The position numbers were made by a program, and so were the translations under genes. A stretch of 64,000 nucleotides of DNA, from positions 18,675 to 82,674 of the forward strand of contig QPGA01000017.1 in assembly GCA_003332265.1 (NCBI GenBank), in the 5' to 3' direction. Under the pieces are notes generated by a model. That model ran no database searches and was not told the origin of the DNA. It was given only the letters and a program-made list of their open reading frames with translations. The stretch's first letter is position 1. Every line of letters starts with the position of its first letter. The stretch is from Candidatus Accumulibacter meliphilus (lineage in GTDB: Bacteria > Pseudomonadota > Gammaproteobacteria > Burkholderiales > Rhodocyclaceae). Positions 1-49,198 of this stretch are shown one piece after another.

Positions 1-2157
<2,157 letters not shown>

Positions 2158-2321
2158 CAAGGCGCAAGCTTTCGAGCCACATCAGGGAGCGAGCATAGGC
2201 GCTTGCACTTGCAGCACTGGCCGGTGCGCTGCGCGCCAAACGGCCTACCGAAAACGCTGCGACGCGCTGCGGCGCTGAAGTACTGCGTGCCCGTCGCCGA
2301 GCGGCAAGCCGGCTTTCCTGG

Positions 2322-2662
2322 TCACACTGCCGGGCTTGGTAACGCCGCTTCCCTGATCGGCAGGTTCAGCAGTGCCGCCACAGCCGCCAACGCAATGTCG
2401 GCGTACCACATCCATCCGTAGTCGCCGAACTGCGTCAGCGCCAGGCCGCCAAGATAGGCGCCAAAGAAGTCGCGGATCTGGTGCGAGAGCAGCGTCATGC
2501 CGAACAGCGTCCCGAGATCGCGCAGGCCAAAGAGCTTGCCGACGATCGCCGCGGTCGGTGGCACCGTCGCCAGCCAGGTGAAACGCCCATGCTCACCATC
2601 AGGATGCCGGCAGCCGACAGCGTGATTGCCCACAAGGCGGGTTGATTGAGAGCGCGGAACAT
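2322..2662 (-). pseudogene. remnant of an MFS transporter (C-terminal part, frameshifted)
   Basis: The frame ending at 2322 encodes a clear MFS C-terminal half-domain: WLATVPPTAAIVGKLFG, then FGAYLGGLAL and a last helix rich in A and L. Just upstream, in a different frame (about 2585-2662), lies MFRALNQPALWAITLSAAG, which is the helix that normally precedes it. The two pieces join only through a frameshift or small deletion near 2583-2588, and the first two thirds of the roughly 400-residue transporter are absent. No intact start or ribosome site is seen. The flanks 2158-2321 and 2663-2755 hold nothing I recognise. Confidence 0.75.
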
Positions 2663-2755
2663 ACGTCGGCTCGCGGTCGGGCAGAAAACCGTTGGGAAGC
2701 AAGCGAAAACAAGCGATCAGGAAGCGGCCCGCCGAGCGTGGTCGCGAGTCGCCGC

Positions 2756-3511
2756 CTACAGATTGCAGAACAGCATGTCGAATTCGACTTCACTATCCGA
2801 CTGCCGTGGTCGATGATCGCTGTCTGGATGAGTGAAGCGGATATTCAGTGCATACTTGTTGGCGCTGATCTCGGGAATATAGGGATCGTCGATCTTCAGA
2901 GAAATGCGGACCATCTGCGAGCTGCTGCCGCCAAGCATCATCTGGAAAGCACCATTGGCCGCCACGTGATGTTCGGCACGACCGCTCGCACGCAACAAAC
3001 GCAGGACGATGGCCAAGGCATCACGCAAGGGCAACATCGGTTGCAGCCAGCCAAGCAGTGCTTCACGCCGTGCGCCTGGCGTCTGATGCCGCCAGTAGTG
3101 ATATGACGGCAGATCGAACTGGCAGACGCCCCCGGGAATACTGGCGCGACTCTTGATACTCATCAGCCAATCGTTGTCGCGCAGATGCTGGCCGATCTTG
3201 CCGGTCATGGCGAGCAGGGCTGCCGACGCCTGCTCGATCTCCTGGAGGGCAAGGTTAAGCGCTTCTTCAGAGATCTCGGGGTTGTTGCGATAAGCGAGCA
3301 GGCTCTGGCGCTGTCGCTCCAGTTCCTGAATCAAGTCCATTTTCAGATCGGCCCGCCCGGAGACATCGAGGATCTCGAACAGGGTCAGCAGCGCGACGTG
3401 GTGCTCGTGCGCTCCGTCACGCTGCATGAAGCGGCCGACCTTCTGGAATAAGTCCTCCAGACGCAACAGGGTGCGTATGCGTTCATTGAAAGGATATTCG
3501 TAGGTAATCAC
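2756..3511 (-). CDS. zapD: cell division protein ZapD
   Basis: ZapD (DUF1342 family) crosslinks FtsZ filaments and stabilises the Z ring. The 251-residue product has the family opening MITYEYPFNERIRTLLRLE, the alpha-helical N-terminal half, and the beta-rich second half with FDLPSYHYW and the family-typical end. Length matches the family (about 250). It lies 60 bases downstream of coaE on the same strand, the coaE-zapD arrangement common in gammaproteobacteria and betaproteobacteria. The usual downstream yacG is absent and is replaced by the MFS remnant. Confidence 0.95.
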   Translation of the reverse strand: MITYEYPFNERIRTLLRLEDLFQKVGRFMQRDGAHEHHVALLTLFEILDVSGRADLKMDLIQELERQRQSLLAYRNNPEISEEALNLALQEIEQASAALLAMTGKIGQHLRDNDWLMSIKSRASIPGGVCQFDLPSYHYWRHQTPGARREALLGWLQPMLPLRDALAIVLRLLRASGRAEHHVAANGAFQMMLGGSSSQMVRISLKIDDPYIPEISANKYALNIRFTHPDSDHRPRQSDSEVEFDMLFCNL

Positions 3512-3571
3512 ACTTCCGCCAACGTCAGAAACGGGAATTTTCGATAATTCTGAAGCATTTGCAACAAAACC

Positions 3572-4195
3572 TCAACGTCCAGCATGAAGTTTGGCACTAG
3601 CCAGCGCCAGATAGCGCCGGTGCAGACCGTCAACCTCTGGCAGCAAGGCGTCCAGTCCACCCTCGTTGTGCAGCACATCGTCGGCCACCGCGCGCCGCTG
3701 CGCACGGGTCGCCTGCGTAGCCATGATCGCCTGCACTGCCGCGGCGCTCAGGCCGCTTCGCGCCGTCACCCGGGCAATCTGCACAGCCTCGTCGCAATCG
3801 ATGACCAGCACTCGATCGGCACGCTGACGATAGCTCGCGGTTTCCACCAGCAAGGGCACGACCAACAGTACGTACGGTGCGTGCTCGGCAGCGGCGCAGC
3901 AGGCGTCGCTGCGTAGCCGAATCAGCGGATGCAGGATCTCTTCGAGCTTCGTCCTGGCCAGTGGATCGGCGAAAGCCAGACGACGCATCGCGGCCCGATC
4001 GAGGCCGCCGTCGGGACGCAAGACGGTGTCGCCGAAAGCAGCTCGAATGGCGGCCATCGCCGCACCCTGCGGGCCGCTCAGTTCATGGGCAATGGCATCA
4101 GTATCGACGAGCACCGCGCCACGTGCGGCGAAAAGCTCAGCGACCGTACTTTTGCCACTGCCGATACCTCCGGTCAGACCCACCACGAAGCTCAT
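3572..4195 (-). CDS. coaE: dephospho-CoA kinase
   Basis: Phosphorylates the 3' hydroxyl of dephospho-CoA, the last step of coenzyme A synthesis. The 207-residue product has the P-loop GLTGGIGSGKST at residues 6-17, then DTDAIAHEL, the DGGLDRAAMRRLAF region and the LLVVPLLVETASY lid segment of the family. Its ATG overlaps the stop of the upstream SPOR gene by 4 bases (ATGA), implying translational coupling. pilBCD, which often precede coaE, are not here. Confidence 0.96.
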   Translation of the reverse strand: MSFVVGLTGGIGSGKSTVAELFAARGAVLVDTDAIAHELSGPQGAAMAAIRAAFGDTVLRPDGGLDRAAMRRLAFADPLARTKLEEILHPLIRLRSDACCAAAEHAPYVLLVVPLLVETASYRQRADRVLVIDCDEAVQIARVTARSGLSAAAVQAIMATQATRAQRRAVADDVLHNEGGLDALLPEVDGLHRRYLALASAKLHAGR

Positions 4196-4926
4196 GGCGT
4201 CACCTCAGCCGGCGCCGAACAAGGGGCCGCCTCGGCCTTCGGCAGCAGCGCCACAATCGCCTCACGCAGCGCGCCCATATCCGCCTCCGGGCCATGGATT
4301 TCGAGCGTACTGAGTGTCGGCTCGCTCCTTCGCTCGCCGATTCTGGCCGAGCGTACCCCCTTGGCGCGTAGCGCTTCGAGCCGCGCCCGGGCGGCCTCCT
4401 CGCCGCGATAGGCTCCCAGGGAAACAGCCAGTGGGCGGGAGCCACTGCTCGGCACAATGAAATAATCCGTTACGCCGAGCTCTTGCAACTCGGCCACTTT
4501 CCGAACCGCTTCCTCTCTGTTGGCAAGTGGTGGGATGAAGACCCAGTAGCCAGTGATCTCGCCAACGTTACGACGTTGCCCCTTGAACGCTGTAAATCGT
4601 TCCGTCAGCAGGCGCTCGACCTGTTCGGCATCGCCAGCGGCCAGCTTGCTCCATAGCTGACAGCTCTCGACGGGCTTCTCGACGGGCTTCTTGTCGCCCT
4701 CGTTGTCAGCCGCGCTGGCGACCACTTTTTCGACCACTTTCTCAGCTTCCGTTTTCTTCTTCGCGGTCGGCGGCGGCTCGCCACGCGAAACGATACGCAC
4801 ACGCTCGGGCAGCAGTTGCTGTGCAAGGTGCCTCGCATCAGGGTTGACCGACGCACCCAGGTAACCCTGCGTCCATACGAACAACAGCAGATTGGCGAGC
4901 AACAGCAGGAAAACGGTGATTCGCAT
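4192..4926 (-). CDS. SPOR-domain membrane protein
   Basis: A 244-residue protein with one N-terminal membrane helix (about residues 3-22), a charged Lys/Glu-rich linker (about 50-90) and a C-terminal part resembling the sporulation-related SPOR fold (WVFIPPLANREEAVRKVAEL and the SLGAYRGEEAARARLEAL repeat). SPOR domains bind denuded peptidoglycan at division sites; a role at the septum is inferred only. Upstream of coaE and zapD, the context leans the same way. No gene symbol is justified. Confidence 0.75.
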   Translation of the reverse strand: MRITVFLLLLANLLLFVWTQGYLGASVNPDARHLAQQLLPERVRIVSRGEPPPTAKKKTEAEKVVEKVVASAADNEGDKKPVEKPVESCQLWSKLAAGDAEQVERLLTERFTAFKGQRRNVGEITGYWVFIPPLANREEAVRKVAELQELGVTDYFIVPSSGSRPLAVSLGAYRGEEAARARLEALRAKGVRSARIGERRSEPTLSTLEIHGPEADMGALREAIVALLPKAEAAPCSAPAEVTP

Positions 4927-4934
4927 CGAGGCGC

Positions 4935-6299
4935 TTATCCGACCTTGGGCAAGTGTTCGAGTGAAGCCCGGATGGCTTCGGCGGGGTAATCGAAATCCTC
5001 GAGCTCAGCGGCGAAATAGCGGTCGTAAGCAGCCATGTCGAAGTGCCCGTGGCCGGTGAGATTGACGAAGATCGTTTTCGCCTCGCCACTCAGTTTGCAA
5101 CGCAAAGCCTCGTCTATCGCCGCCCGCAGCGCGTGATTGGACTCCGGTGCGGGAATGATCCCCTCGGCGCGAGAAAACATGACGCCAGCTTCAAAGGTGG
5201 CGAGCTGCGAGACCGCAACCGCCTCGATCAAGCCTTCGTGATAGAGCTGCGAAACCAGCGGCGAATCACCATGGTAACGCAATCCACCGGCGTGGATTCC
5301 CGGGGGCATGAAATCATGCCCGAGGGTGTACATTTTCATCAACGGCGTGAAGCCGGAGGCATCGCCAAAGTCGTAGGCGTAGGCACCGCGCGTCAAGCTC
5401 GGGCAGGAAGTCGGCTCGACGGCCACCAGCCGTGTCGGGCGCCCATTTCGGCCACCGGCAGCGTTGTCGGCGATGAACGGAAAGGCCACGCCGGCAAACG
5501 ACGATCCGCCGCCACAAGGCGCAAAAATGACGTCCGGCCAGTCACCGATTTTCGCGAACTGCTTCTTGGCTTCCTGACCGATGATCGTCTGATGAAGCGC
5601 CACGTGATTGAGGACCGAGCCGAGCGCATAACTGGTATCCGCGCGCCCAGCAGCCTCTTCGACGGCCTCTGAAATGGCAATTCCGAGCGAACCCTGGCTG
5701 TCGGGATCGCTGGCCAGCAGATCGCGCCCGCTCTGCGTCATCGACGAAGGGCTGGCAAACACCTCGGCGCCCCAGGTCTGCATCATCGAACGCCGGAAGG
5801 GTTTTTGCTGATAGCTGACCTTGACCATGTAGACCCGCACGTCAAGGCCAAACATCTGGCCGGCGAAAGCCATCGAGCAACCCCATTGGCCGGCGCCGGT
5901 CTCGGTGGTGATCCGTTTGATTCCTGCCTGCTGATTGTAGAAGGCCTGCGGTACGGCGGTATTGGGCTTGTGCGAACCGGCCGGGGAAACCCCCTCGTAC
6001 TTGTAGTAAATCCTGGCCGGCGTGCCGAGCACTTCTTCGAGTCGATGAGCGCGAATCAAAGGCGACGGACGCCACAGGCGGTAAATCTCACGGACCGGCT
6101 CGGGAATCGGAATCCAGCGCTCGCTCGACATTTCCTGCGCGATGATCGCCTCCGGAAAGATCGCCCCCATCTGCTCCGGTGAAACCGGCTGGCCGTCCGC
6201 GGCAAGCGGCGGCAGCGGCGGTGTCGGCAGGTCGGCGACGACGTTATACCAGTGCGTCGGAATTTCGGACTGATCGAGAGTAATGTGCAGCGATTCCAC
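4935..6299 (-). CDS. trpB2: tryptophan synthase beta chain, TrpB2 type (PLP-dependent)
   Basis: A 454-residue fold-type II PLP enzyme of the TrpB-like (TrpB2) family, which condenses indole with serine (or phosphoserine in some members). PLP-binding Lys111 sits in AGSHKPNTA; the substrate loop is ETGAGQWG (133-140), where TrpB1 enzymes have GAGQHG; a CGGGSS loop binds the phosphate. It is longer than classical TrpB (about 400) and lacks the usual alpha-subunit interface sequence. A second, classical trpB is at 21682-22887 beside trpA, so this copy probably salvages indole without TrpA. It starts 8 bases upstream of the SPOR gene. Confidence 0.92.
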
Positions 6300-6340
6300 G
6301 AAACTTCCCCTTATTCTTCCTGTTCAGCGAATCCGCGAAG

Positions 6341-6370
6341 TATACCCCGGGATACCCCGGGATACCCTGG
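6341..6370. repeat. three 10-bp direct repeats
   Basis: Three adjacent units, tataccccgg, gataccccgg and gataccctgg, lie in the 110-base gap between the trpB2-type gene start and the end of the BamE-like gene. No function is evident; they sit where the trpB2 promoter or leader would be. Confidence 0.6.
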
Positions 6371-6409
6371 CGATCCGCTTCAGCGACCGGCGTGGACACA
6401 AGCGCGGCG

Positions 6410-6898
6410 TCAAGGGCCGGGCGTGAAGTTGGTACTGGTCCTGGTAACCACTCCAGCGTTGTTGAAATGGACGTTGAAATACCAGGTCATGCCCGCTTCG
6501 ACCTTGGTTTTCCAGTCCCATACCTTTTCTTGTTTGAGTGAAAAGTAGAGCTCGTGCGCCGGTCGGCCGAGCAGGTAACGCACTTCGTCGCTGCTCATGC
6601 CCGGCCGGACCTTGGCGAAATTCTCCTCGGTCAGCACCTGCCGCACTTCGCGCAAAACCTTGTCCGAACCGATGACCAGCATGTAGTTGACGATGCCCTG
6701 GGGCGTGCGCGGATACTCCCAGACCCGTGCACCGTCGGCTTCCACCCACTCCATGCTAGGCTCGCCCATCAGCTGGCGTACTTCATCGACGCTGGTGATG
6801 CCGGGCTTGAGCTTGCTCAGCTTGTCGGCGTCGCATGCCGAGAACGCAAGAGCGACCAGTCCGGAAAGCAAAACACCTGGCAAGAGTTTGATCGACAT
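6410..6898 (-). CDS. BamE/SmpA-like outer-membrane lipoprotein
   Basis: A 162-residue protein with a lipoprotein signal peptide (hydrophobic stretch 8-20, lipobox ending at Cys22) and two copies of the SmpA/OmlA signature: LKPGITSVDEVRQLMGEP and VRPGMSSDEVRYLLGRP. BamE is a small lipoprotein of the beta-barrel assembly complex and has one such motif in about 110 residues. This longer two-motif form is seen in betaproteobacteria; whether it serves the BAM complex is inferred. The gene diverges from the MFS gene at 6981. Confidence 0.82.
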   Translation of the reverse strand: MSIKLLPGVLLSGLVALAFSACDADKLSKLKPGITSVDEVRQLMGEPSMEWVEADGARVWEYPRTPQGIVNYMLVIGSDKVLREVRQVLTEENFAKVRPGMSSDEVRYLLGRPAHELYFSLKQEKVWDWKTKVEAGMTWYFNVHFNNAGVVTRTSTNFTPGP

Positions 6899-6980
6899 GT
6901 TTTACCGCGCCCCACTCACTGCGACTAGAATTGGTGCCACAAAGCCACGAGTATAGACGACACGAGCGCATGGAGGACTG

Positions 6981-8414
6981 TTGAGCCCGAGCGAAGCAGC
7001 CAGCAAGCAAGCCACTGCACCGCAGCCGCCCCCCGTCGGGCTGGCCGAGAGCCCGGCACGGATACGAGCGGCAGCTTCGCTCGGCCACCACCGGCGCCCG
7101 TGCTGTGCACCGTCGCCAGGGTCGACCTTGAACGCCGCCCCGCGCGGCTACCCACCCGCCTCCCTCGCCTGGAGCGTGTGGGGGCTGGGCGCTCTGCTCT
7201 ATTTGATCGGTTTCTACCAGCGCGTCGCGCCGGCGGTAATGACCGACCAGCTGATGATCGACTTCTCGATCGGGGCCACCGAACTCGGCAATCTTTCGGC
7301 CTTCTATTTCTACTCCTATGTGGTCATGCAGATCCCGACCGGGATCATCGCCGATCGTTGGGGACCGCGCCGTCTGCTGACGGCGGGCGCGCTGGTCGCG
7401 GCCATCGGCAGTGCGCTGTTTGCCAGCGCCCCTGATCTGTGGTGGGCGAACGGCGGACGTTTGCTGATCGGCGCCTCGGTTGCCGTCGCCTTCGTCTCGA
7501 TGCTCAAGCTCGCCAGCCACTGGTTCGCACCGCAGCAGTTTGCGCTGGCCTCCGGACTGGCACTGGTCTTTGGTGTCGTCGGCGGGGTGATCGCCGGCGT
7601 CCCTCTGCGGATGCTGATCGAAGCCTGGGGCTGGCGCTCGGTGATGGGCGTCTCGGCAGCTCTGACCGCGTTGCTGGCGGTCGCCATCTGGCTGCGCGTG
7701 CGCGACGACCCCGTCGACTGCGCTTACGACAGCCATGCGCATTCCGCGCACGGCAGCGGGCACCACGGCTCGATCCTGCACGGCATGGCGGAAGTACTCT
7801 CCTACCGCAACACCTGGATTCTGCTGATCACCCCGATCGGCATTGCCGGATCGGTACTTACCTTTGCCGGCCTGTGGGGTGTGCCCTATCTGCGCCAGGT
7901 GCATGGCCTCGACACCCACAGCGCCGCAGCGATCACCTCGCTACTGTTGATCGCCTGGGCGATCGGCGGACCCGTCCTCGGTACCCTCTCCCAACGCATG
8001 GGCCGCCGGCGACCGCTCTATGTCTGGACCACCGCCGCGGCGCTCGCCGGCTGGCTGGTGGTCATTTTTGCGCCGATACCGATCTGGCTGCTGATCATCA
8101 CCCTGCTGTTCACCGGGCTGGTCTCTGGCAACCTGATCATCGGTTTCGCTTTCGCCAAAGAATCGGTGCCGGTCCGCCTGATGGGCACTGCTTCGGGAAT
8201 CTGCAACATGGGGCCACTACTCGGCGGCATGTTGCTGCAACCGGCCGTCGGCTGGGTACTCGACGATAACTGGCTGGGTGCCACGGCGGCTGGGGTCCGC
8301 CTTTACGACGCCACCGCTTATCAGGCCGGATTCAGCCTGATGGCCGGCTGCCTGGTCATTTCACTCTGCCTGATCCCTTTTGCCAAGGAAACCGCTTGCC
8401 AACAGAGCAAATAA
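6981..8414 (+). CDS. major facilitator superfamily transporter
   Basis: A 12-helix MFS permease with the loop 2-3 signature (GIIADRWGPRRLL) and a His-rich central loop (HAHSAHGSGHHG). The TTG at 6981 follows GGAGG by only four bases and adds about 50 non-helical residues. A second in-frame TTG at 7128, just before NAAPRGYPPASLAW, fits the family N-terminus better, so the start is uncertain. The substrate cannot be told from sequence. Its 3' end overlaps the convergent Bcr-type gene by 59 bases. Confidence 0.88.
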   Translation: MSPSEAASKQATAPQPPPVGLAESPARIRAAASLGHHRRPCCAPSPGSTLNAAPRGYPPASLAWSVWGLGALLYLIGFYQRVAPAVMTDQLMIDFSIGATELGNLSAFYFYSYVVMQIPTGIIADRWGPRRLLTAGALVAAIGSALFASAPDLWWANGGRLLIGASVAVAFVSMLKLASHWFAPQQFALASGLALVFGVVGGVIAGVPLRMLIEAWGWRSVMGVSAALTALLAVAIWLRVRDDPVDCAYDSHAHSAHGSGHHGSILHGMAEVLSYRNTWILLITPIGIAGSVLTFAGLWGVPYLRQVHGLDTHSAAAITSLLLIAWAIGGPVLGTLSQRMGRRRPLYVWTTAAALAGWLVVIFAPIPIWLLIITLLFTGLVSGNLIIGFAFAKESVPVRLMGTASGICNMGPLLGGMLLQPAVGWVLDDNWLGATAAGVRLYDATAYQAGFSLMAGCLVISLCLIPFAKETACQQSK

Positions 8415-11867: not shown

Positions 11868-11966
11868 ATGAAAAATAGTGCTCTTGCCGCGCGGTTCACC
11901 GCTGCACTGTGGCCGCCACGCGGACCACAGGCCATTCCTCAACGGAAGACGCCGCACAGCCTTTGA
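11868..11966 (+). CDS. 32-codon reading frame ahead of glnK (leader peptide or gene remnant)
   Basis: An ATG with a strong ribosome site (GGAGGG, 8 bases upstream) opens a frame beginning MKNSALAARFTAALWPP and stopping after 32 codons. It is the first frame downstream of the sigma-54 promoter. The start resembles a signal peptide, but no cleavage region or mature protein follows. In related betaproteobacteria a TorF-like porin gene often precedes glnK, so this may be the surviving start of such a gene; a leader peptide is the alternative. Translation is not proven. The rest of 11967-12035 has no gene. Confidence 0.4.
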   Translation: MKNSALAARFTAALWPPRGPQAIPQRKTPHSL

Positions 11967-12374
<408 letters not shown>

Positions 12375-12384
12375 GGAGCCTGCC

Positions 12385-13878
12385 ATGAAACACTTTTTTA
12401 CCATTCTCGCCCTGGTCGGAGCCGTCGCTATCGGCGCCCCGGCCTGGGCTGACGAGACGCCGGCCGGGCTCAGCGCGGCGAGCCCCGCGATGACCTTGGC
12501 GCAGGCTCCGACCGCGGCTGCAGAAGTCGCAGCCACCGCCAGCGCAGTTGCAGCAGTCGAAGCAGCGCCGCAGCTCAGCAAGGCAGACAACGGCTGGATC
12601 ATGGTCTGCGCCGCGCTGGTCATCCTGATGTCGCTGCCCGGGCTGGCCCTCTTCTATGGGGGGCTGGTGCGCACCAAGAACATGCTCTCGGTGCTGATGC
12701 AGGTCTTCGTGACCTTCTCGCTGATCAGCGTGCTGTGGGTGGTCTATGGCTACTCCCTGGCGTTCACTGAAGGCGGCAGTTTCTTCGGGGTGCTCGACAA
12801 GGTCTTCCTGAAAGGAATTACCGCCGACTCGCTTGGCGCCACCTTCTCCAAGGGCGTGTTCATCTCCGAGCTGACCTTTGTCATCTTCCAGGGCGCTTTC
12901 GCAGCGATCACCTGCTGCCTGATCGTCGGTGCTTTCGCCGAACGCGCGAAGTTTGCCGCAATCCTGGTGTTCATGATCATCTGGTTCACGCTCTCCTACG
13001 CACCCATGGCGCATATGGTGTGGTACTGGGCGGGTCCGGATGCCTATATCGACGCCGCTGCCGGCGAAGCCGCCGGCAAGACCGCCGGCTTCCTGTTCCA
13101 GAAAGGCGCTCTCGACTTTGCCGGCGGCACAGTGGTGCACATCAACGCCGCCGTTGCCGGACTGGTCGGCGCCTTCATGATCGGCAAGCGGATTGGTTAC
13201 GGCCGCGAATCGATGGCGCCGCACAGCCTGACCTTCACCATGATCGGGGCCTCGCTGCTGTGGTTTGGCTGGTTCGGATTCAACGCCGGCTCGGCACTGG
13301 AGGCCAGCGGTGGCTCGGCTCTGGCAATGGTCAATACCTGGTTGGCAACCGCTTGTGCAACCCTCTCCTGGATGCTCGCCGAATGGATGCTCAAAGGCAA
13401 GCCTTCGATGCTCGGCGCCGCTTCCGGAGCAGTGGCGGGGCTGGTGGCCATCACCCCGGCAGCCGGTTTTGTCGGGGTCATGGGTGCCATCGCCATTGGT
13501 CTGCTGGCCGGCGTGGTCTGCCTGTGGGGCGTCAATGGTTTGAAGCACATGCTCGGCGCCGATGATTCCCTCGACGTTTTCGGCGTCCATGGTGTCGGCG
13601 GCATCCTCGGTGCCATCCTGACCGGCGTCTTCGCCTCGCCCTCGCTTGGCGGCAGCGGCGTCTATGACTATGTCGCCAACGCCGTCGGCGAGTACGACAT
13701 GACCGCGCAGGTGATCAGCCAGTTGTGGGGCGTCGGCACGGTAATCGTCTGGTCGGGCATCGTGTCGGTCGTCGCCTTCAAAGTGGTCGACCTGCTGATC
13801 GGTTTGCGAGTACCGGAAGACGAGGAACGCGAAGGCCTTGACATCACCGCACACGGCGAGTCGGCCTACCACTACTGA
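12385..13878 (+). CDS. amtB: ammonium transporter
   Basis: An Amt/Mep/Rh channel moving ammonium across the inner membrane. The 497-residue product has a cleavable-looking signal peptide (to about AWADE at residue 24), an Ala-rich linker, then the 11-helix Amt domain beginning ADNGWIMVCAALVILMSLPGLALFYGG. The family signatures FAGGTVVHINAAVAGLVGA (first pore His) and DVFGVHGVGGILGA (second pore His) are intact. The start at 12385 has a GAGGAG-type site; longer in-frame starts would run into glnK. Co-transcribed with glnK from the sigma-54 promoter. Confidence 0.96.
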   Translation: MKHFFTILALVGAVAIGAPAWADETPAGLSAASPAMTLAQAPTAAAEVAATASAVAAVEAAPQLSKADNGWIMVCAALVILMSLPGLALFYGGLVRTKNMLSVLMQVFVTFSLISVLWVVYGYSLAFTEGGSFFGVLDKVFLKGITADSLGATFSKGVFISELTFVIFQGAFAAITCCLIVGAFAERAKFAAILVFMIIWFTLSYAPMAHMVWYWAGPDAYIDAAAGEAAGKTAGFLFQKGALDFAGGTVVHINAAVAGLVGAFMIGKRIGYGRESMAPHSLTFTMIGASLLWFGWFGFNAGSALEASGGSALAMVNTWLATACATLSWMLAEWMLKGKPSMLGAASGAVAGLVAITPAAGFVGVMGAIAIGLLAGVVCLWGVNGLKHMLGADDSLDVFGVHGVGGILGAILTGVFASPSLGGSGVYDYVANAVGEYDMTAQVISQLWGVGTVIVWSGIVSVVAFKVVDLLIGLRVPEDEEREGLDITAHGESAYHY

Positions 13879-13907
13879 GCCCTTCGGTCATAATGAACTC
13901 TCCCCTT

Positions 13908-13937
13908 CGGGCGCCCACGTGGCGCCCGTTTTTTTTT
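13908..13937 (+). terminator. rho-independent terminator of glnK-amtB
   Basis: An 8-bp GC stem (cgggcgcc/ggcgcccg) with a 5-base loop is followed by an unbroken run of nine or more T residues, 30 bases after the amtB stop. Confidence 0.92.
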
Positions 13938-13981
13938 GGGGGGGTGTGTAGGGGGCGATCAACTGATGAGCGGGAGCAAGA

Positions 13982-14203
13982 ATGGCTTTTCTGAGCTGGT
14001 GAGACCAGCATCGCGTCGGGGTTGAGCACATCGACCAGGAGCATCGCTTTCCTTTTCGATCTGAGCAGCGAGTTCCATAACGAGTACCGTGGCGGCGCCG
14101 ATCGCAGGGCGATGGAACAGGTCTTCAACCGTCTGCTTCGATATTCCGAAGAACATTTTGCCGCGAGGAGGAGACCATGTTGAAAAGCGGGTATCCGCTT
14201 CAC
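13982..14203 (+). pseudogene. bacteriohemerythrin pseudogene
   Basis: Following a GGGAG site, the ATG at 13982 starts MAFLSW, then a TGA stop, then DQHRVGVEHIDQEHR. A one-base shift leads into FLFDLSSEFHNEYRGGADRR and AMEQVFNRLLRYSEEHFAA, and a second shift into EETMLKSGYPLH. Together these spell a bacteriohemerythrin: the HxxxD/E-type diiron ligands (H...D..H, H, EEHF..EE, H) are recognisable. One stop and two frameshifts in 220 bases and loss of the C-terminal helix mean no O2-binding protein can be made. Sequencing error is possible but three lesions make decay more likely. Confidence 0.8.
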
Positions 14204-14241
14204 AGGCTGCCTCTACCGAAGCCAGGCACTTCCCGGCGCAG

Positions 14242-14268
14242 TGTACTCTGTGTACTCTGTGTACTCCT
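14242..14268. repeat. three 9-bp tandem repeats
   Basis: tgtactctg occurs twice and tgtactcct once, head to tail, within the decayed stretch between the hemerythrin remnant and the gene at 14391. No function is apparent. The remainder of 14204-14390 shows no gene. Confidence 0.6.
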
Positions 14269-14390
14269 TGAACCGGAGCGCCGTCTGTGCGACATTCGCG
14301 GTCTTGTTCACGTCGATTCGGTCCGCGGATACATCGTCGGCACCGCCTCGATACAACAACGATCAAGCACAGCAGTAACAGGGAGAGAAC

Positions 14391-14690
14391 ATGAAATACG
14401 TGATTTGGGTGTTCTGGCCGGCCTTTATCGCCGCCGGAATCGCCGAAACGATCTTCTTTACGATGATCGATCCAGAGCAGTTATACCTTTTCGGGCAACG
14501 TGTCGAATGGTCCTTGACCGCGACCTACTCAACGGGTTTTCTGCTCTTCTGGCTGGTCTGCATTGGCTCGAGTCTGATGACCTATCTGATGATGCCGAGA
14601 GACGCCAAGGAGGCGCTGATGAAAGCCGCCGGTGAGCGTGAGGATCTCGCCCGACCGAAGCGCCGGGAACCTGGCAGCGGCGGCCGCTAG
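14391..14690 (+). CDS. conserved two-helix membrane protein of unknown function
   Basis: A 99-residue protein with two predicted membrane helices (about 4-25 and 46-66) and a basic cytoplasmic tail (RPKRREPG). A GGGAG site precedes the ATG. The sequence, beginning MKYVIWVFWPAFIAAGIAET and containing WSLTATYSTGFLLFWLVCIG, resembles small hypothetical membrane proteins of betaproteobacteria; no function is known to me. Its 3' end overlaps the convergent metZ by 4 bases. Confidence 0.75.
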   Translation: MKYVIWVFWPAFIAAGIAETIFFTMIDPEQLYLFGQRVEWSLTATYSTGFLLFWLVCIGSSLMTYLMMPRDAKEALMKAAGEREDLARPKRREPGSGGR

Positions 14691-44525: not shown

Positions 44526-46442
44526 TTAAGCCGTACCACGTCGCGCGGCCACTTCATCCAGAAGTTGCCCAGTCAGAGCCTCGATCGACATTTGTCCGAG
44601 ATCCCGACCTCCGCGTGTGCGCACGGCCACCAGGTTCGCTGCCACTTCCTTGTCGCCAACGACGATCTGGTAGGGCAGCTTGTTCAAGCTATGTTCTCGT
44701 ATTTTATAGGTAATTTTTTCGTTGCGCAAATCCGCCTCGACGCGCAGGCCGGCATTGCGCAGCGTCGCCGCCACCTGTTCAGCGTACGCGCCCTGCTTCT
44801 CCGAAATATTGAGCACCACCGCCTGCGTCGGCGATAGCCACAACGGCATGGCGCCGGCATAATTCTCGATGAGGATGCCGATGAAACGTTCCAGCGAACC
44901 GAGAATTGCCCGATGCAACATCACCGGAATATGCCGATCATTGTCCTCGCCAACATAGTGCGCATTGAGGCGCTCGGGCAAGGCAAAATCGAGCTGCAGG
45001 GTGCCGCACTGCCAGACACGACCGAGGCAATCCTTGAGCGAAAACTCGATTTTCGGGCCATAGAAAGCGCCCTCGCCCGGCTGCACCTCGAAGCTCCGAC
45101 CCTTGGCCTTCAGCCCTTCGCCAAGGGCGGCCTCGGCGCGGTCCCACTGGGCGTCGGAACCAATACGCTTTTCTGGACGTGTCGACAGCTTGACGATGAT
45201 GTCGGTAAACCCGAAATCGGCATAGACCTTCTCCAAAAGGTCGATGAAGGCTTCGGTCTCCGGCAGCACCTGCGCTTCCGTACAAAAGATGTGCGCGTCA
45301 TCCTGCACGAAAGCGCGTACGCGCATGATGCCGTGCAAAGCCCCTGAAGGCTCGTTGCGATGACAGGAACCGAATTCGGCCAAACGCAAAGGCAGGTCCC
45401 GGTAGCTACGCAAGCCCTGATTGAAGATCTGGATATGCCCGGGGCAATTCATCGGCTTGACCGCGTAATCGCGATTTTCGGAAGCGGTGGTGAACATGTG
45501 CTCGGCGTAGTTCTCCCAATGCCCCGAGCGCTCCCATAAGGAGCGATCCATGATCATCGGCGTCTTCACTTCGCAATAGCCGTGCCGGTCGAGCAGACGA
45601 CGCATGTACTGCTCAACTTCCTGCCAGATCGTCCAGCCCTTGGGATGCCAGAAAACCATTCCCGGTGACTCTTCCTGGAGGTGAAACAGGTCCAGCTGCC
45701 GACCGATCTTGCGGTGGTCGCGCTTCTCGGCCTCTTCGAGCATATGCAGATATGCTTCCTGGTCCTCTTTCTTGGCCCACGCCGTACCGTAGATGCGCTG
45801 CAACTGTTCGTTACGATGATCACCGCGCCAGTAGGCACCCGCCAGCTTCATCAGCTTGAACACTTTCAGCTTGCCGGTAGACGGCACGTGCGGTCCGCGA
45901 CAGAGGTCGACGAAATCGCCCTCGCGATAGAGCGACACCTCCTGCCCCTCGGGAATGGCCTCGATCAGCTCGGCTTTGTAGCGCTCGCCGATCGACTGAA
46001 AGAAAGCCACCGCCGCTGCGCGCTCCCAGACCTCTCGCTCGACCGGGATATCGCGTTTGGCGAGCTCGCCCATGCGCTTTTCGATGGCCGCCAGATCATC
46101 GTTGGTAAACGGGCGCTGGTAGGCAAAGTCGTAGTAGAAACCGTTTTCGATGACCGGCCCGATGGTCACCTGCGCTTCCGGGAAAAGCTCCTTGACCGCG
46201 TAGGCCATCAGATGTGCGGTCGAGTGGCGAATCACCTCCAGGCCCTCGGCATCCTTCTCGGTGATGATGCCCAGCTGCACGTCGGCGACAATCAAGAACG
46301 AGGTGTCAACCAGACGCCCGTCGACCTTGCCGGCAAGCGCAGCGCGCGCCAGACCGGCGCCGATACTCTGCGCAACTTCGGCAACCGTCAGCGGCTGTGC
46401 GAACTCTCTTTGCGAACCGTCAGGCAGTGTAACAACCGGCAT
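44526..46442 (-). CDS. thrS: threonine--tRNA ligase
   Basis: A 638-residue class II synthetase: TGS domain (1-62, [14 protein letters not shown]), editing domain with the [16 protein letters not shown] zinc-like motif and C..H in DLCRGPHV, catalytic core with motif 2 ([22 protein letters not shown]) and MNCPGH (zinc Cys), and the C-terminal anticodon-binding domain. The ATG at 46442 is the family start; an upstream in-frame ATG adds six unmatched residues. In E. coli ThrS represses its own translation through a leader mimic; 46443-46670 upstream shows no gene. Confidence 0.97.
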
Positions 46443-46670: not shown

Positions 46671-47912
46671 TCACGATCGACCAGGGGAAGCCTCGTCGAG
46701 ATGCATCCAGTGCTCGATTTCGCTACGCAGGTCCGCCAGTTGCTCGGGTTCGATCAGGCGGATGCGGTAGGCACGGGCGCGTTCGCGCGCCGCCGAACCG
46801 GTGCCGGGATGCAGTCGTCGGGCGGTCAGCAGCCAGGTTTCCCCCATCGCCCCGCCGACATGCCGACGCAGGCTGTCGAGACGGTTGAGGATGGCCTGAC
46901 TACCGCCCTCGGTAGTGATCTGCACGCCGGTCTTGCATTCGAGTACCAGAAGCTGGTTGCGCCACACCAGTGCGGCGTCGAGTTCGTTCCCGGCGCCTTC
47001 CGGGGCGCCCTCGGCGTCGATGCGCACATTGGTGCCCCAGTGGCCGTCGGGGATCAAGCCGTCGGCCTGCAAGCCAGCGAGCGTCAGCCATACCCATTCC
47101 TCAAGCCAGCCACCACCAGCGTAGCGAGTCACGGTCTCGCTGCCGAAAGCGAAGCGACAATCGCCGTCCCAGTGCCAGATACCCGCCTGTTCGAAGGCCC
47201 AGGCAAGCTGGTGGTGATTGGCGAAGAGCGGTCGTTCGGCAACGATTTCCCTCTGAAACGGACGGATGACCATGCCATCGGGACGGGTCTTTGGCAGAGC
47301 TTGGCGAGTCAATCGGTTGACGTAGCCGAAGAAGCCGCCGAGCTGCGCAGCGGAAGACGCCAGATGCTCGGTCAGAAAAGCGCGCGCGGCGGCGGCGAGG
47401 GCGAAATCGGCGCCCCAGGTGGGATCGGCGACGACGCGGTAACCCTGCATCTGCAAGAGGTCGGTCAGGCGCAGCATGTCCGGCGGCAAGGCCAGCGGCT
47501 CGCCGCCACCCAGAGGCTCGAGCAGATCGTGGTGGGTATCGCAGTACCAGGCATCGCCCAGGCCGGCAAAGGCCCCGAGAAAACCGAAGGACATCACTTT
47601 GGTACCGCCACTGGCATTGAGATCGATCGGCCAGCCAGGGAATTCGCTACCCAGCGACGCCGCCAGTTCGCGAGCGTAGCTGCTGATGCGTCCGAGGTCG
47701 TGGTCAGGCGTGTGACGAACGATACGCACCGCATCTTCCGCCCAGCCCGCTTCACGCAGAACGCGACTGACCTGCAACGCACCCTGACACGCCGGCTCGG
47801 CATCGCTGGCAGCGATGACCACCTGGGCCGGCCGCAAGCGCAGCGCCGGCAGAGTGTTCTGCATGATCTGCTCGGAAGCCAGGCAGACAAGAACGCGTGG
47901 CTGGAACGACAT
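46671..47912 (-). CDS. Card1/Can2-like CARF-domain nuclease (DUF1887 family)
   Basis: A 413-residue protein in two parts. Residues 1-150 form a Rossmann-like CARF domain (RVLVCLASEQIMQNTLPAL) with the cyclic-oligoadenylate-pocket motif DLNASGGTKVMS (97-108). Residues 255-413 form a PD-(D/E)xK nuclease: GGWLEEW (Glu271/272), GNELDAAL (Asp312) and LVLECKTG (Glu325, Lys327), all expected active-site residues present. This is the VC1899/Card1/Can2 (DUF1887) architecture; characterised members are activated by cyclic tetra-adenylate from type III CRISPR complexes and cut DNA or RNA. No cas gene or array is in the window. It has a GGAAG site and lies 228 bases upstream of thrS on the same strand. 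Confidence 0.88.
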   Translation of the reverse strand: MSFQPRVLVCLASEQIMQNTLPALRLRPAQVVIAASDAEPACQGALQVSRVLREAGWAEDAVRIVRHTPDHDLGRISSYARELAASLGSEFPGWPIDLNASGGTKVMSFGFLGAFAGLGDAWYCDTHHDLLEPLGGGEPLALPPDMLRLTDLLQMQGYRVVADPTWGADFALAAAARAFLTEHLASSAAQLGGFFGYVNRLTRQALPKTRPDGMVIRPFQREIVAERPLFANHHQLAWAFEQAGIWHWDGDCRFAFGSETVTRYAGGGWLEEWVWLTLAGLQADGLIPDGHWGTNVRIDAEGAPEGAGNELDAALVWRNQLLVLECKTGVQITTEGGSQAILNRLDSLRRHVGGAMGETWLLTARRLHPGTGSAARERARAYRIRLIEPEQLADLRSEIEHWMHLDEASPGRS

Positions 47913-48127: not shown

Positions 48128-49198
48128 ATGCTCTGGTTCATCCCGGGTCTCATCGCCCTGATCGTCGGCGCCGAACTGCTGGTCCGCGGCGCTTCGAAAC
48201 TGGCGCTGTCTTTTGGCATCTCGCCGCTGGTGGTCGGGCTGACGGTGGTCGCCTTCGGGACCAGTGCGCCCGAACTCGCGGTGTCCGTGCAATCCGCGTG
48301 GTCTGGGCAGGTCGACATCGCGCTCGGCAACGTGGTCGGCAGCAACATTTTCAACGTCCTGTTCATTCTCGGCCTGTCAGCGCTGATCGCGCCCTTGCTG
48401 GTGCATCGCCAGTTGATCCGGCAGGAAGTGCCGATGATGGTCGCTCTTTCGCTGCTGCTCTGGCTGCTCGCCAGCGACGGGGGTATCAGCCGTGGCGACG
48501 GCCTGCTGCTGGTCAGCCTGCTGCTCGCCTACACTTTCCTGGTCATCCGCCAGAGCCGCCGCGAGAGCCTTGCAGGCGCGCCGCTGGCGTCCGGGCCACC
48601 GCCCGTCGACGGCCGCGCCTGGGACGCTCACTGGCTGGCGCAGCTCCTGCTGGTCGCAGCTGGAATGACGCTCCTCGTGCTCGGATCCAACTGGCTGGTC
48701 GAAGCCGCGGTCACCCTGGCCCGGCGCCTGGGGATGAGCGAAGTGGTCGTCGGACTGACCATCGTCGCCGCCGGTACCTCGCTGCCGGAAGTCGCGACCT
48801 CGATCATGGCGGCAGTACGCGGCCAGCGCGACATCGCCGTCGGCAACGTGGTGGGCAGCAATATTTTCAACATCCTGGCCGTGCTCGGCATCTCCGCCAG
48901 CATCGCCCCGGGCGATCTGCTCGTGCCAGCGTCCTTGTTGGCCTTCGACCTACCAGTGATGGTCGTCGTCGCCGTCGCCTGCCTGCCCATCTTCTTTACC
49001 GGCCACCTGATCGCGCGCTGGGAAGGGGCGTTGTTCCTCGCCTACTACGCGGCCTACACCACCTACCTGGTACTCGACGCCGCCGGCCATGCCGCGCAAA
49101 GCGGTTTCTCGCTGGTGATGGGCAGCTTCGCCCTGCCGCTCACCGCAATCACCTTGATCCTGCTCGCCTGGCGTCATTGGCACAGGGTACGCAGCTAA
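48128..49198 (+). CDS. calcium/sodium antiporter (CaCA family)
   Basis: A 356-residue, ten-helix inner-membrane exchanger with both alpha repeats: VVAFGTSAPELAVS with GNVVGSNIFNVLFILG, and IVAAGTSLPEVATS with GNVVGSNIFNILAVLG. The acidic cation ligands (Glu in both APE/LPE) are present. YrbG-like. Preceding spacer 47913-48127 has no gene; the 126-bp repeat copy B begins at its stop codon. Confidence 0.93.
   Translation: MLWFIPGLIALIVGAELLVRGASKLALSFGISPLVVGLTVVAFGTSAPELAVSVQSAWSGQVDIALGNVVGSNIFNVLFILGLSALIAPLLVHRQLIRQEVPMMVALSLLLWLLASDGGISRGDGLLLVSLLLAYTFLVIRQSRRESLAGAPLASGPPPVDGRAWDAHWLAQLLLVAAGMTLLVLGSNWLVEAAVTLARRLGMSEVVVGLTIVAAGTSLPEVATSIMAAVRGQRDIAVGNVVGSNIFNILAVLGISASIAPGDLLVPASLLAFDLPVMVVVAVACLPIFFTGHLIARWEGALFLAYYAAYTTYLVLDAAGHAAQSGFSLVMGSFALPLTAITLILLAWRHWHRVRS

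Follow-up and report, generated by a model that had tools for sequence, protein, structure and literature searches.

A 64,000-nucleotide stretch of Candidatus Accumulibacter meliphilus DNA (GenBank assembly GCA_003332265.1, contig QPGA01000017.1, positions 18,675 to 82,674; the whole stretch is referred to as the window) carries a gene, here called card1, for a nuclease of the DUF1887 family. Candidatus Accumulibacter is a wastewater bacterium. With moderate confidence, card1 is read as encoding a resident, off-locus nuclease of the Card1/Can2 type that would be activated by cyclic tetra-adenylate (cA4) and act in trans with whichever type III clustered regularly interspaced short palindromic repeats (CRISPR) system is present; in the window's own genome it probably works with a III-A system. 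An effector acting in trans with type III systems is supported by a III-A locus on another contig of the genome, a retained cA4 pocket, an orthologue overlapping csx16, fusions of Csx16 with relatives of Card1, an exchange of type III modules between sister genomes, and a low ratio of nonsynonymous to synonymous substitution rates (dN/dS). Sequence comparison establishes the family, the catalytic residues, the retained cA4 contacts, the presence of the III-A locus elsewhere, the off-locus position, a mostly vertical descent, selective constraint, and co-occurrence with III-A as well as III-B systems, and the off-locus position implies that activation would occur in trans. Throughout, G000 denotes the window's genome (4.70 Mb in 120 contigs, 91% complete) and C29 the contig bearing the window, while other G numbers denote compared genomes and L numbers extracted loci.

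The card1 open reading frame (ORF) occupies positions 46671..47912 on the reverse strand, starts with ATG, encodes 413 amino acids (aa), and has host-like codon usage (score 99 in a coding-potential scan). Judged by its model matches, the protein is a member of the DUF1887/Card1-Can2 nuclease family with a CARF and a PD-(D/E)xK domain, as an earlier interpretation of the window from its letters alone (the sequence-only reading) had proposed. It matches Pfam PF09002 (Card1_endonuc) with a score of 79.8 bits, where the cut-off is 26.4; the PADLOC model PDLC01880 (CARF_PDDEXK) spans residues 6-404 (7e-82); and a profile of 19 relatives matches, nearly end to end, the PDB entries of VC1899 (1xmx, 194 bits), Can2 (7bdv, 179 bits), and Card1 (6wxw, 116 bits). 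A search of NCBIfam with the window protein returned zero matches, and all eight named relatives (74-95% identity) come from Candidatus Accumulibacter. Profile alignment to 7bdv and 1xmx, with a check of the columns, places the CARF sensor domain at about residues 1-150 (47463..47912, reverse strand), and sequence and alignment locate the strand-4 motif DLNASGGTKVMS at residues 97-108 (47589..47624, reverse strand), where the sequence-only reading had put it. The PF09002 nuclease domain covers residues 259-404 (46701..47138, reverse strand). Its catalytic site also agrees with that reading, which had listed Glu271/272, Asp312, Glu325, and Lys327: E271, E310, D312, E325, and K327 are invariant in 19/19 aligned relatives, whereas E272 varies (the truncated G015 copy was left out of the invariance and pocket counts). 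Glu271 and Glu272 (47097..47102, reverse strand) belong to the sequence GGWLEE, and the remaining four invariant residues to a NELD...ECK block (46932..46985, reverse strand).

The contacts made by Can2 with cA4 that are shared with Can1 are given in PMC7969007 as Ser19, Thr42, Lys99, and Tyr118, and the residues of VC1899 at these positions as Asp, Asp, Arg, and Val. Profile alignment identifies the equivalents in the window protein as S13, S36, K105, and Y123, the serine at position 36 being a conservative change; the Can2 contacts are present, and the loss of cA4 contacts typical of VC1899-like orphans is not found. All four residues are retained in 12/13 full-length Accumulibacter orthologues, the exception being that of G002 (T13 and F123), a genome in which type III was not detected. 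A wider view comes from 399 genomes drawn evenly from the order, in which relatives were found by profile and type III systems by RAMP match. DUF1887 relatives occur in 24 of these genomes and RAMPs in 25, with an overlap of 12 (p = 3e-10), and half of the 24 relatives come from RAMP-negative genomes. In RAMP-positive genomes besides G000, the Lys and Tyr are retained in 11/11 testable relatives from 11 genera; in RAMP-negative genomes, Pro replaces the Lys, and Ala, Val, or Ser the Tyr, in 10/11 testable relatives, whose nuclease residues are intact. The ten losses are not independent, because they are drawn from six genera (four from one and two from another), and the counts leave out G199 (no CARF part) and take the two-piece G426 once. 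By this Lys/Tyr test, the Accumulibacter orphan falls into the cA4-gated class rather than the one resembling VC1899.

A second class of orphan DUF1887 genes (L223-L231, from G230, G227, G337, G248, G278, G365, G409, G098, and G459) was observed in housekeeping-looking surroundings of RAMP-free genomes. These orphans have lost the Tyr, and GA(T/S/N)P or AASP stands where the CARF domain would have GGTK, but their nuclease residues are intact. Since the class is conserved within genera, it probably has a different function rather than being in decay.

The isolation of card1 beside thrS that the sequence-only reading described is confirmed: a simple repeat scan finds no CRISPR array in the 64-kb window, and a whole-genome profile search finds no Cas10, RAMP, or Csx16 match above cut-off on C29. 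All such matches fall on a different contig, C28 (L035), which holds a III-A locus whose genes are all recognized by Pfam or PADLOC models. This locus comprises csx16, encoding a cA4 ring nuclease (1361-1657), cas2-cas1-cas2 (2050-3688), an array of 44 repeats found by the repeat scan (4066-7094), cas6, csm5, csm4, csm3, csm2, and cas10 (PADLOC Cas10a, 11924-14596), in which an HD motif and AGGDD can be read; it also includes genes for an NE0113 CARF protein and for Csx1, a CARF-HEPN protein bearing an R-x4-H motif. The genome thus contains a cyclase-competent (GGDD) Cas10 on a different contig from card1. The earlier interpretation had reasoned that a nearby type III locus outside the 64 kb would show card1 to be an ordinary ancillary nuclease; this is borne out in part, in that a locus does exist, but on another contig. 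It lies at one end of C28, and ~19 kb separate card1 from an end of C29, so that the two may be linked across a contig gap; in G010, assembled as a single contig, card1 and the type III locus are ~1.9 Mb apart. Beside Csx16 on C28, a 61-aa ORF (L035:803-988) resembles by eye the small ORF found with a zeta-toxin-like gene where other genomes have their card1 site.

Only the orthologue of G011 (76-77% identity) is encoded inside a type III locus, where it overlaps csx16 by ATGA; cas2-cas1-cas2 and arrays lie downstream of the card1-csx16 pair, and a III-B Cas10 lies ~16 kb off. Csx16 is described as a cA4-specific ring nuclease in PMC12409355, and Can2 genes close to csx16 have been reported before (PMC7969007). 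Because G011 is placed beside the thrS clade in both the card1 tree (support 93/95) and the thrS tree, its CRISPR-linked position may represent re-recruitment of a resident gene. The GGDD cyclase of the III-A locus on C28, the retained pocket, and the csx16 overlap in G011 together give concrete support to the earlier suggestion that card1 may respond to a cyclic oligonucleotide produced at another place. The closest paralogues found, in G018 and G023 (36-39% identity), carry an N-terminal Csx16 domain recognized by Pfam, and a further fusion, in G051, is recognized by sequence (~500 aa each; L110:1462-2979 in G018, L111:3524-5041 in G023, and L112:1435-2934 in G051). These fusions have the same nuclease and pocket residues as the window protein but differ from it in the Csx16 domain and, for G018 and G023, in their location within a III-A-like locus. 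The fusion genes of G018 and G023 adjoin a separate Csx16 gene. By analogy with the known Crn2-Csx1 fusion, a Csx16-Card1 fusion could be a self-limiting nuclease.

Within the genus, card1 orthologues (71-96% identity to the window protein) are present in 14/28 Accumulibacter genomes, the paralogues of G018 and G023 not being counted. Type III systems were scored by PF22335 Cas10 matches above 60 bits, and weaker matches, which stayed below 52 bits across all genomes searched and below 30 bits within the genus, were discarded as GGDEF-like noise, which an E. coli control also produces. On this basis, 17/28 genomes contain a type III system, RAMP matches mark the identical 17, and the best Cas10 in each bears GGDD; a Cas10 with GGDD is found in 10/14 card1 carriers. 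The Cas10 subtype assigned by PADLOC is III-A in G000, G010, and G015 and III-B in G011, G013, G020, and G026, with the subtypes of the remaining type III genomes grouped by similarity only. Card1 therefore coexists with III-A in some genomes and with III-B in others. A lone csx16 was observed in G017 (L177:3370-3666), a genome with neither a RAMP match nor a Cas10 above 60 bits.

Simple pairwise dN/dS estimates for card1 (15 pairs, not branch tests) range from 0.08 to 0.14 in the 12 closer pairs and from 0.082 to 0.237 overall, including values of 0.104-0.141 among G010, G020, and G026, where type III is present. The comparison of G010 with G026 shows near-identical card1 genes (dN 0.015) and different type III systems at one chromosomal site. 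At this site three flanking genes (90-97%), Csx1 (90%), and NE0113 (95%) are highly identical, but the type III module is Csm with a III-A Cas10 in G010 (L206:9692-19493 and L207) and Cmr with a III-B Cas10 in G026 (L200/L202), where the locus runs off the contig end. Since the two genomes share card1 but differ in the type III module, the effector gene seems to outlive a particular surveillance complex. A III-C locus is also found in G026 (L201:8186-16310), adjoining the pieces of its III-B locus, with a PADLOC Cas10c that has an HD motif and no GGDD, and with no Csx1 among the called genes.

In the window, card1 is followed after 229 bp by thrS (44526..46442, reverse strand, from gene calls) and preceded, with a 216 bp gap, by a divergent Na/Ca exchanger gene (48128..49198, forward strand, PF01699 family match). 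No cas gene is called next to card1 in 13/14 carriers; the gene adjoins thrS in G000, G001, G009, G012, and G015, and an alpha/beta-hydrolase gene lies within ~2 kb of it in 10/14 carriers. A functional pair of card1 and the hydrolase was considered and rejected: a hydrolase relative is present in 28/28 genomes, non-carriers included (24 at ≥62% identity), and the hydrolase is therefore taken as a marker of the locus. Sites free of card1 are seen between thrS and the exchanger in G019 and between the hydrolase and a zeta-toxin-like gene in G014, G016, and G022 (a match to the zeta-toxin model was obtained for the G013 gene). G016 retains a degraded 26-codon remnant of the card1 N-terminus (L166:4484-4561; tblastn E = 0.007) between the hydrolase and the zeta-toxin-like pair, in the expected position, so that at least one absence of card1 is a loss. 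The card1 copy of G015 (L098:8459-11170) is short of ~24 first residues, and the ORFs upstream of or adjacent to it look like an insertion element.

Trees of card1 and thrS agree on a clade of G000, G015, G009, G012, and G001 with G011 outside it, and on a clade of G010, G020, and G026; the grouping of G004 with G013 is compatible with both. The order within the G010, G020, and G026 clade differs between the trees, and G007 and G002 are paired in the card1 tree only (G023 is missing from the thrS tree because it gave no thrS match above the limit). Mapped on the thrS tree, the presence of card1 requires six changes, five of them forced by well-supported branches. These patterns suggest that card1 is an old resident which has passed down mostly vertically and been lost several times. 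Carriage by phages or plasmids was rejected: there was no match among phage records, no confirmed IMG/VR relative of the A1 profile, and one plasmid match at 27% identity.

For the window protein, dimerization, binding of cA4, nuclease activity, and activation in trans are predicted by analogy with Can2. A type III complex that meets its target RNA would induce Cas10 to make cyclic oligoadenylate, and the messenger would diffuse, with cA4 binding where the paired CARF domains of a Card1 dimer meet. The PD-(D/E)xK domains would then open and, regardless of sequence, cut RNA and nick DNA, slowing the invader alongside the locus-encoded Csx1, and Csx16, where present, would clear the cA4 signal. 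A long-standing chromosomal card1 could in this way serve any type III system that a lineage happens to have at the time.

Several observations weigh against a nuclease dependent on type III. The Pfam CARF_Card1 model falls below its cut-off for the window protein (13.4 versus 24.6 bits), and because of this the CARF assignment rests on the full-length models (PADLOC and the PDB profile). Type III systems occur in 10/14 carriers versus 7/14 non-carriers, which is not significant (Fisher p = 0.44), and co-occurrence was accordingly rejected as proof of a link; the association is strong in the order sample, but half of the relatives there come from RAMP-negative genomes. Four carriers (G001, G002, G009, and G012) have neither a Cas10 above 60 bits nor a RAMP match; their assemblies are 100%, 87%, 93%, and 88% complete, respectively, and the missing systems, above all those of G012 and G002, could be assembly gaps. 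Every Cas10-GGDD locus examined has its own Csx1, with card1 present or absent (one locus per genome in 16/17 type III genomes, all but G021, and only one of those in G014 and in G025; Csx1 is shortened in G015), and with a local Csx1 at each locus Card1 would be a second, additional effector that is not required. Csx16 is absent from 10/14 carriers, and the relative in G164, a RAMP-negative genome, still has the Lys and Tyr. The dN/dS values among G001, G009, and G012, where type III was not detected, are 0.082, 0.098, and 0.099; in these three genomes, purifying selection on card1 is not visibly relaxed.

A rival explanation is a Cas10-independent effector, whose CARF domain would sense a cyclic oligonucleotide or related ligand from another host enzyme or from a phage, with type III being incidental. 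The four carriers without detected type III, the dN/dS of 0.082-0.099 among three of them, and the main clades of card1, which follow those of thrS and not the type III subtype, are all in keeping with this explanation, and the CRISPR-independent pathway envisaged in the sequence-only reading may find some footing here, given that card1 is under equal purifying selection in the three genomes compared. This explanation is nevertheless unlikely, for the cA4 contacts are conserved rather than altered, the orthologue of G011 sits in a CRISPR locus where it overlaps csx16, and it is in G002, without detected type III, that two pocket residues have drifted (T13 and F123). Candidate sources of another messenger are also scarce. 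mCpol was rejected, with matches above cut-off in 0/28 genomes and the sole weak match lying inside the G011 Cas10, and so was the cyclic-oligonucleotide-based antiphage signaling system (CBASS) as a common source, with SMODS above cut-off in 5/28 genomes and, of the four carriers lacking type III, a SMODS-type CD-NTase above cut-off in G009 only. A related proposal, that in the type III-less species (G001, G009, perhaps G002 and G012) the nuclease is kept active by a cyclic-oligoadenylate-like messenger from an unrecognized host enzyme, forming a CRISPR-independent signaling pathway that type III joins when present, is unlikely.

Bet-hedging, whereby card1 is useful only alongside type III and is kept on standby because type III turns over faster than card1 is lost, would fit the different subtypes at one site in the sister genomes G010 and G026, the patchiness of both type III (17/28) and card1 (14/28), the at least five changes in card1 presence on the thrS tree, and the remnant in G016. 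A pure standby gene would be expected to show some relaxation of constraint, which the type III-less trio does not, and this explanation is considered very unlikely. Still more improbable is a cast-adrift remnant resembling VC1899, that is, a degenerate or repurposed enzyme that has lost cA4 gating. The orphan location of the window gene recalls VC1899, itself an orphan described in PMC7969007 as a weak RNase not regulated by cA4, but the contact sites that read Asp/Asp/Arg/Val in VC1899 read Ser/Ser/Lys/Tyr in the window protein, and the Lys and Tyr are mostly lost in the orphans of other families (10/11 testable in the order sample).

Compared with known systems, the cA4-activated, off-locus Card1/Can2-type nuclease proposed here resembles Can2 (7bdv; PMC7969007) and Card1 (6wxw) in its single CARF domain joined to PD-(D/E)xK, its identical catalytic residues, and the four Can1/Can2 contacts (Thr42 as Ser), and differs from them in lying outside its own genome's III-A locus, with no adjoining cas gene called in nearly all carriers, whereas DNA- and RNA-cutting immune enzymes of this kind are usually encoded within type III CRISPR loci. 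VC1899 of Vibrio cholerae is likewise an orphan DUF1887 protein and is the best PDB match of the profile, but it has lost the cA4 site that the window protein retains. CARF genes unlinked to CRISPR, including the VC1899 family, are noted in PMC4012209. Signaling between type III loci is proposed in PMC11229360, where a messenger from one locus may activate effectors encoded elsewhere; that proposal is inferred from effector-less loci, while the present case concerns a loose effector. Among the matches listed for open-licence papers on Accumulibacter with CARF or with type III, CRISPR, or defence, the titles and abstract beginnings do not mention the card1 gene.

Orphan CARF proteins are already known, and the one that has been studied, VC1899, has lost its cA4 site. 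The lineage described here is an orphan one with an intact cA4 site, under steady selection, in genomes with III-A, with III-B, or without detected type III. It allows a direct test of whether the messenger of a type III system reaches effectors whose genes lie outside its locus, and the carrier species without type III offer a clean test for a messenger source independent of Cas10.
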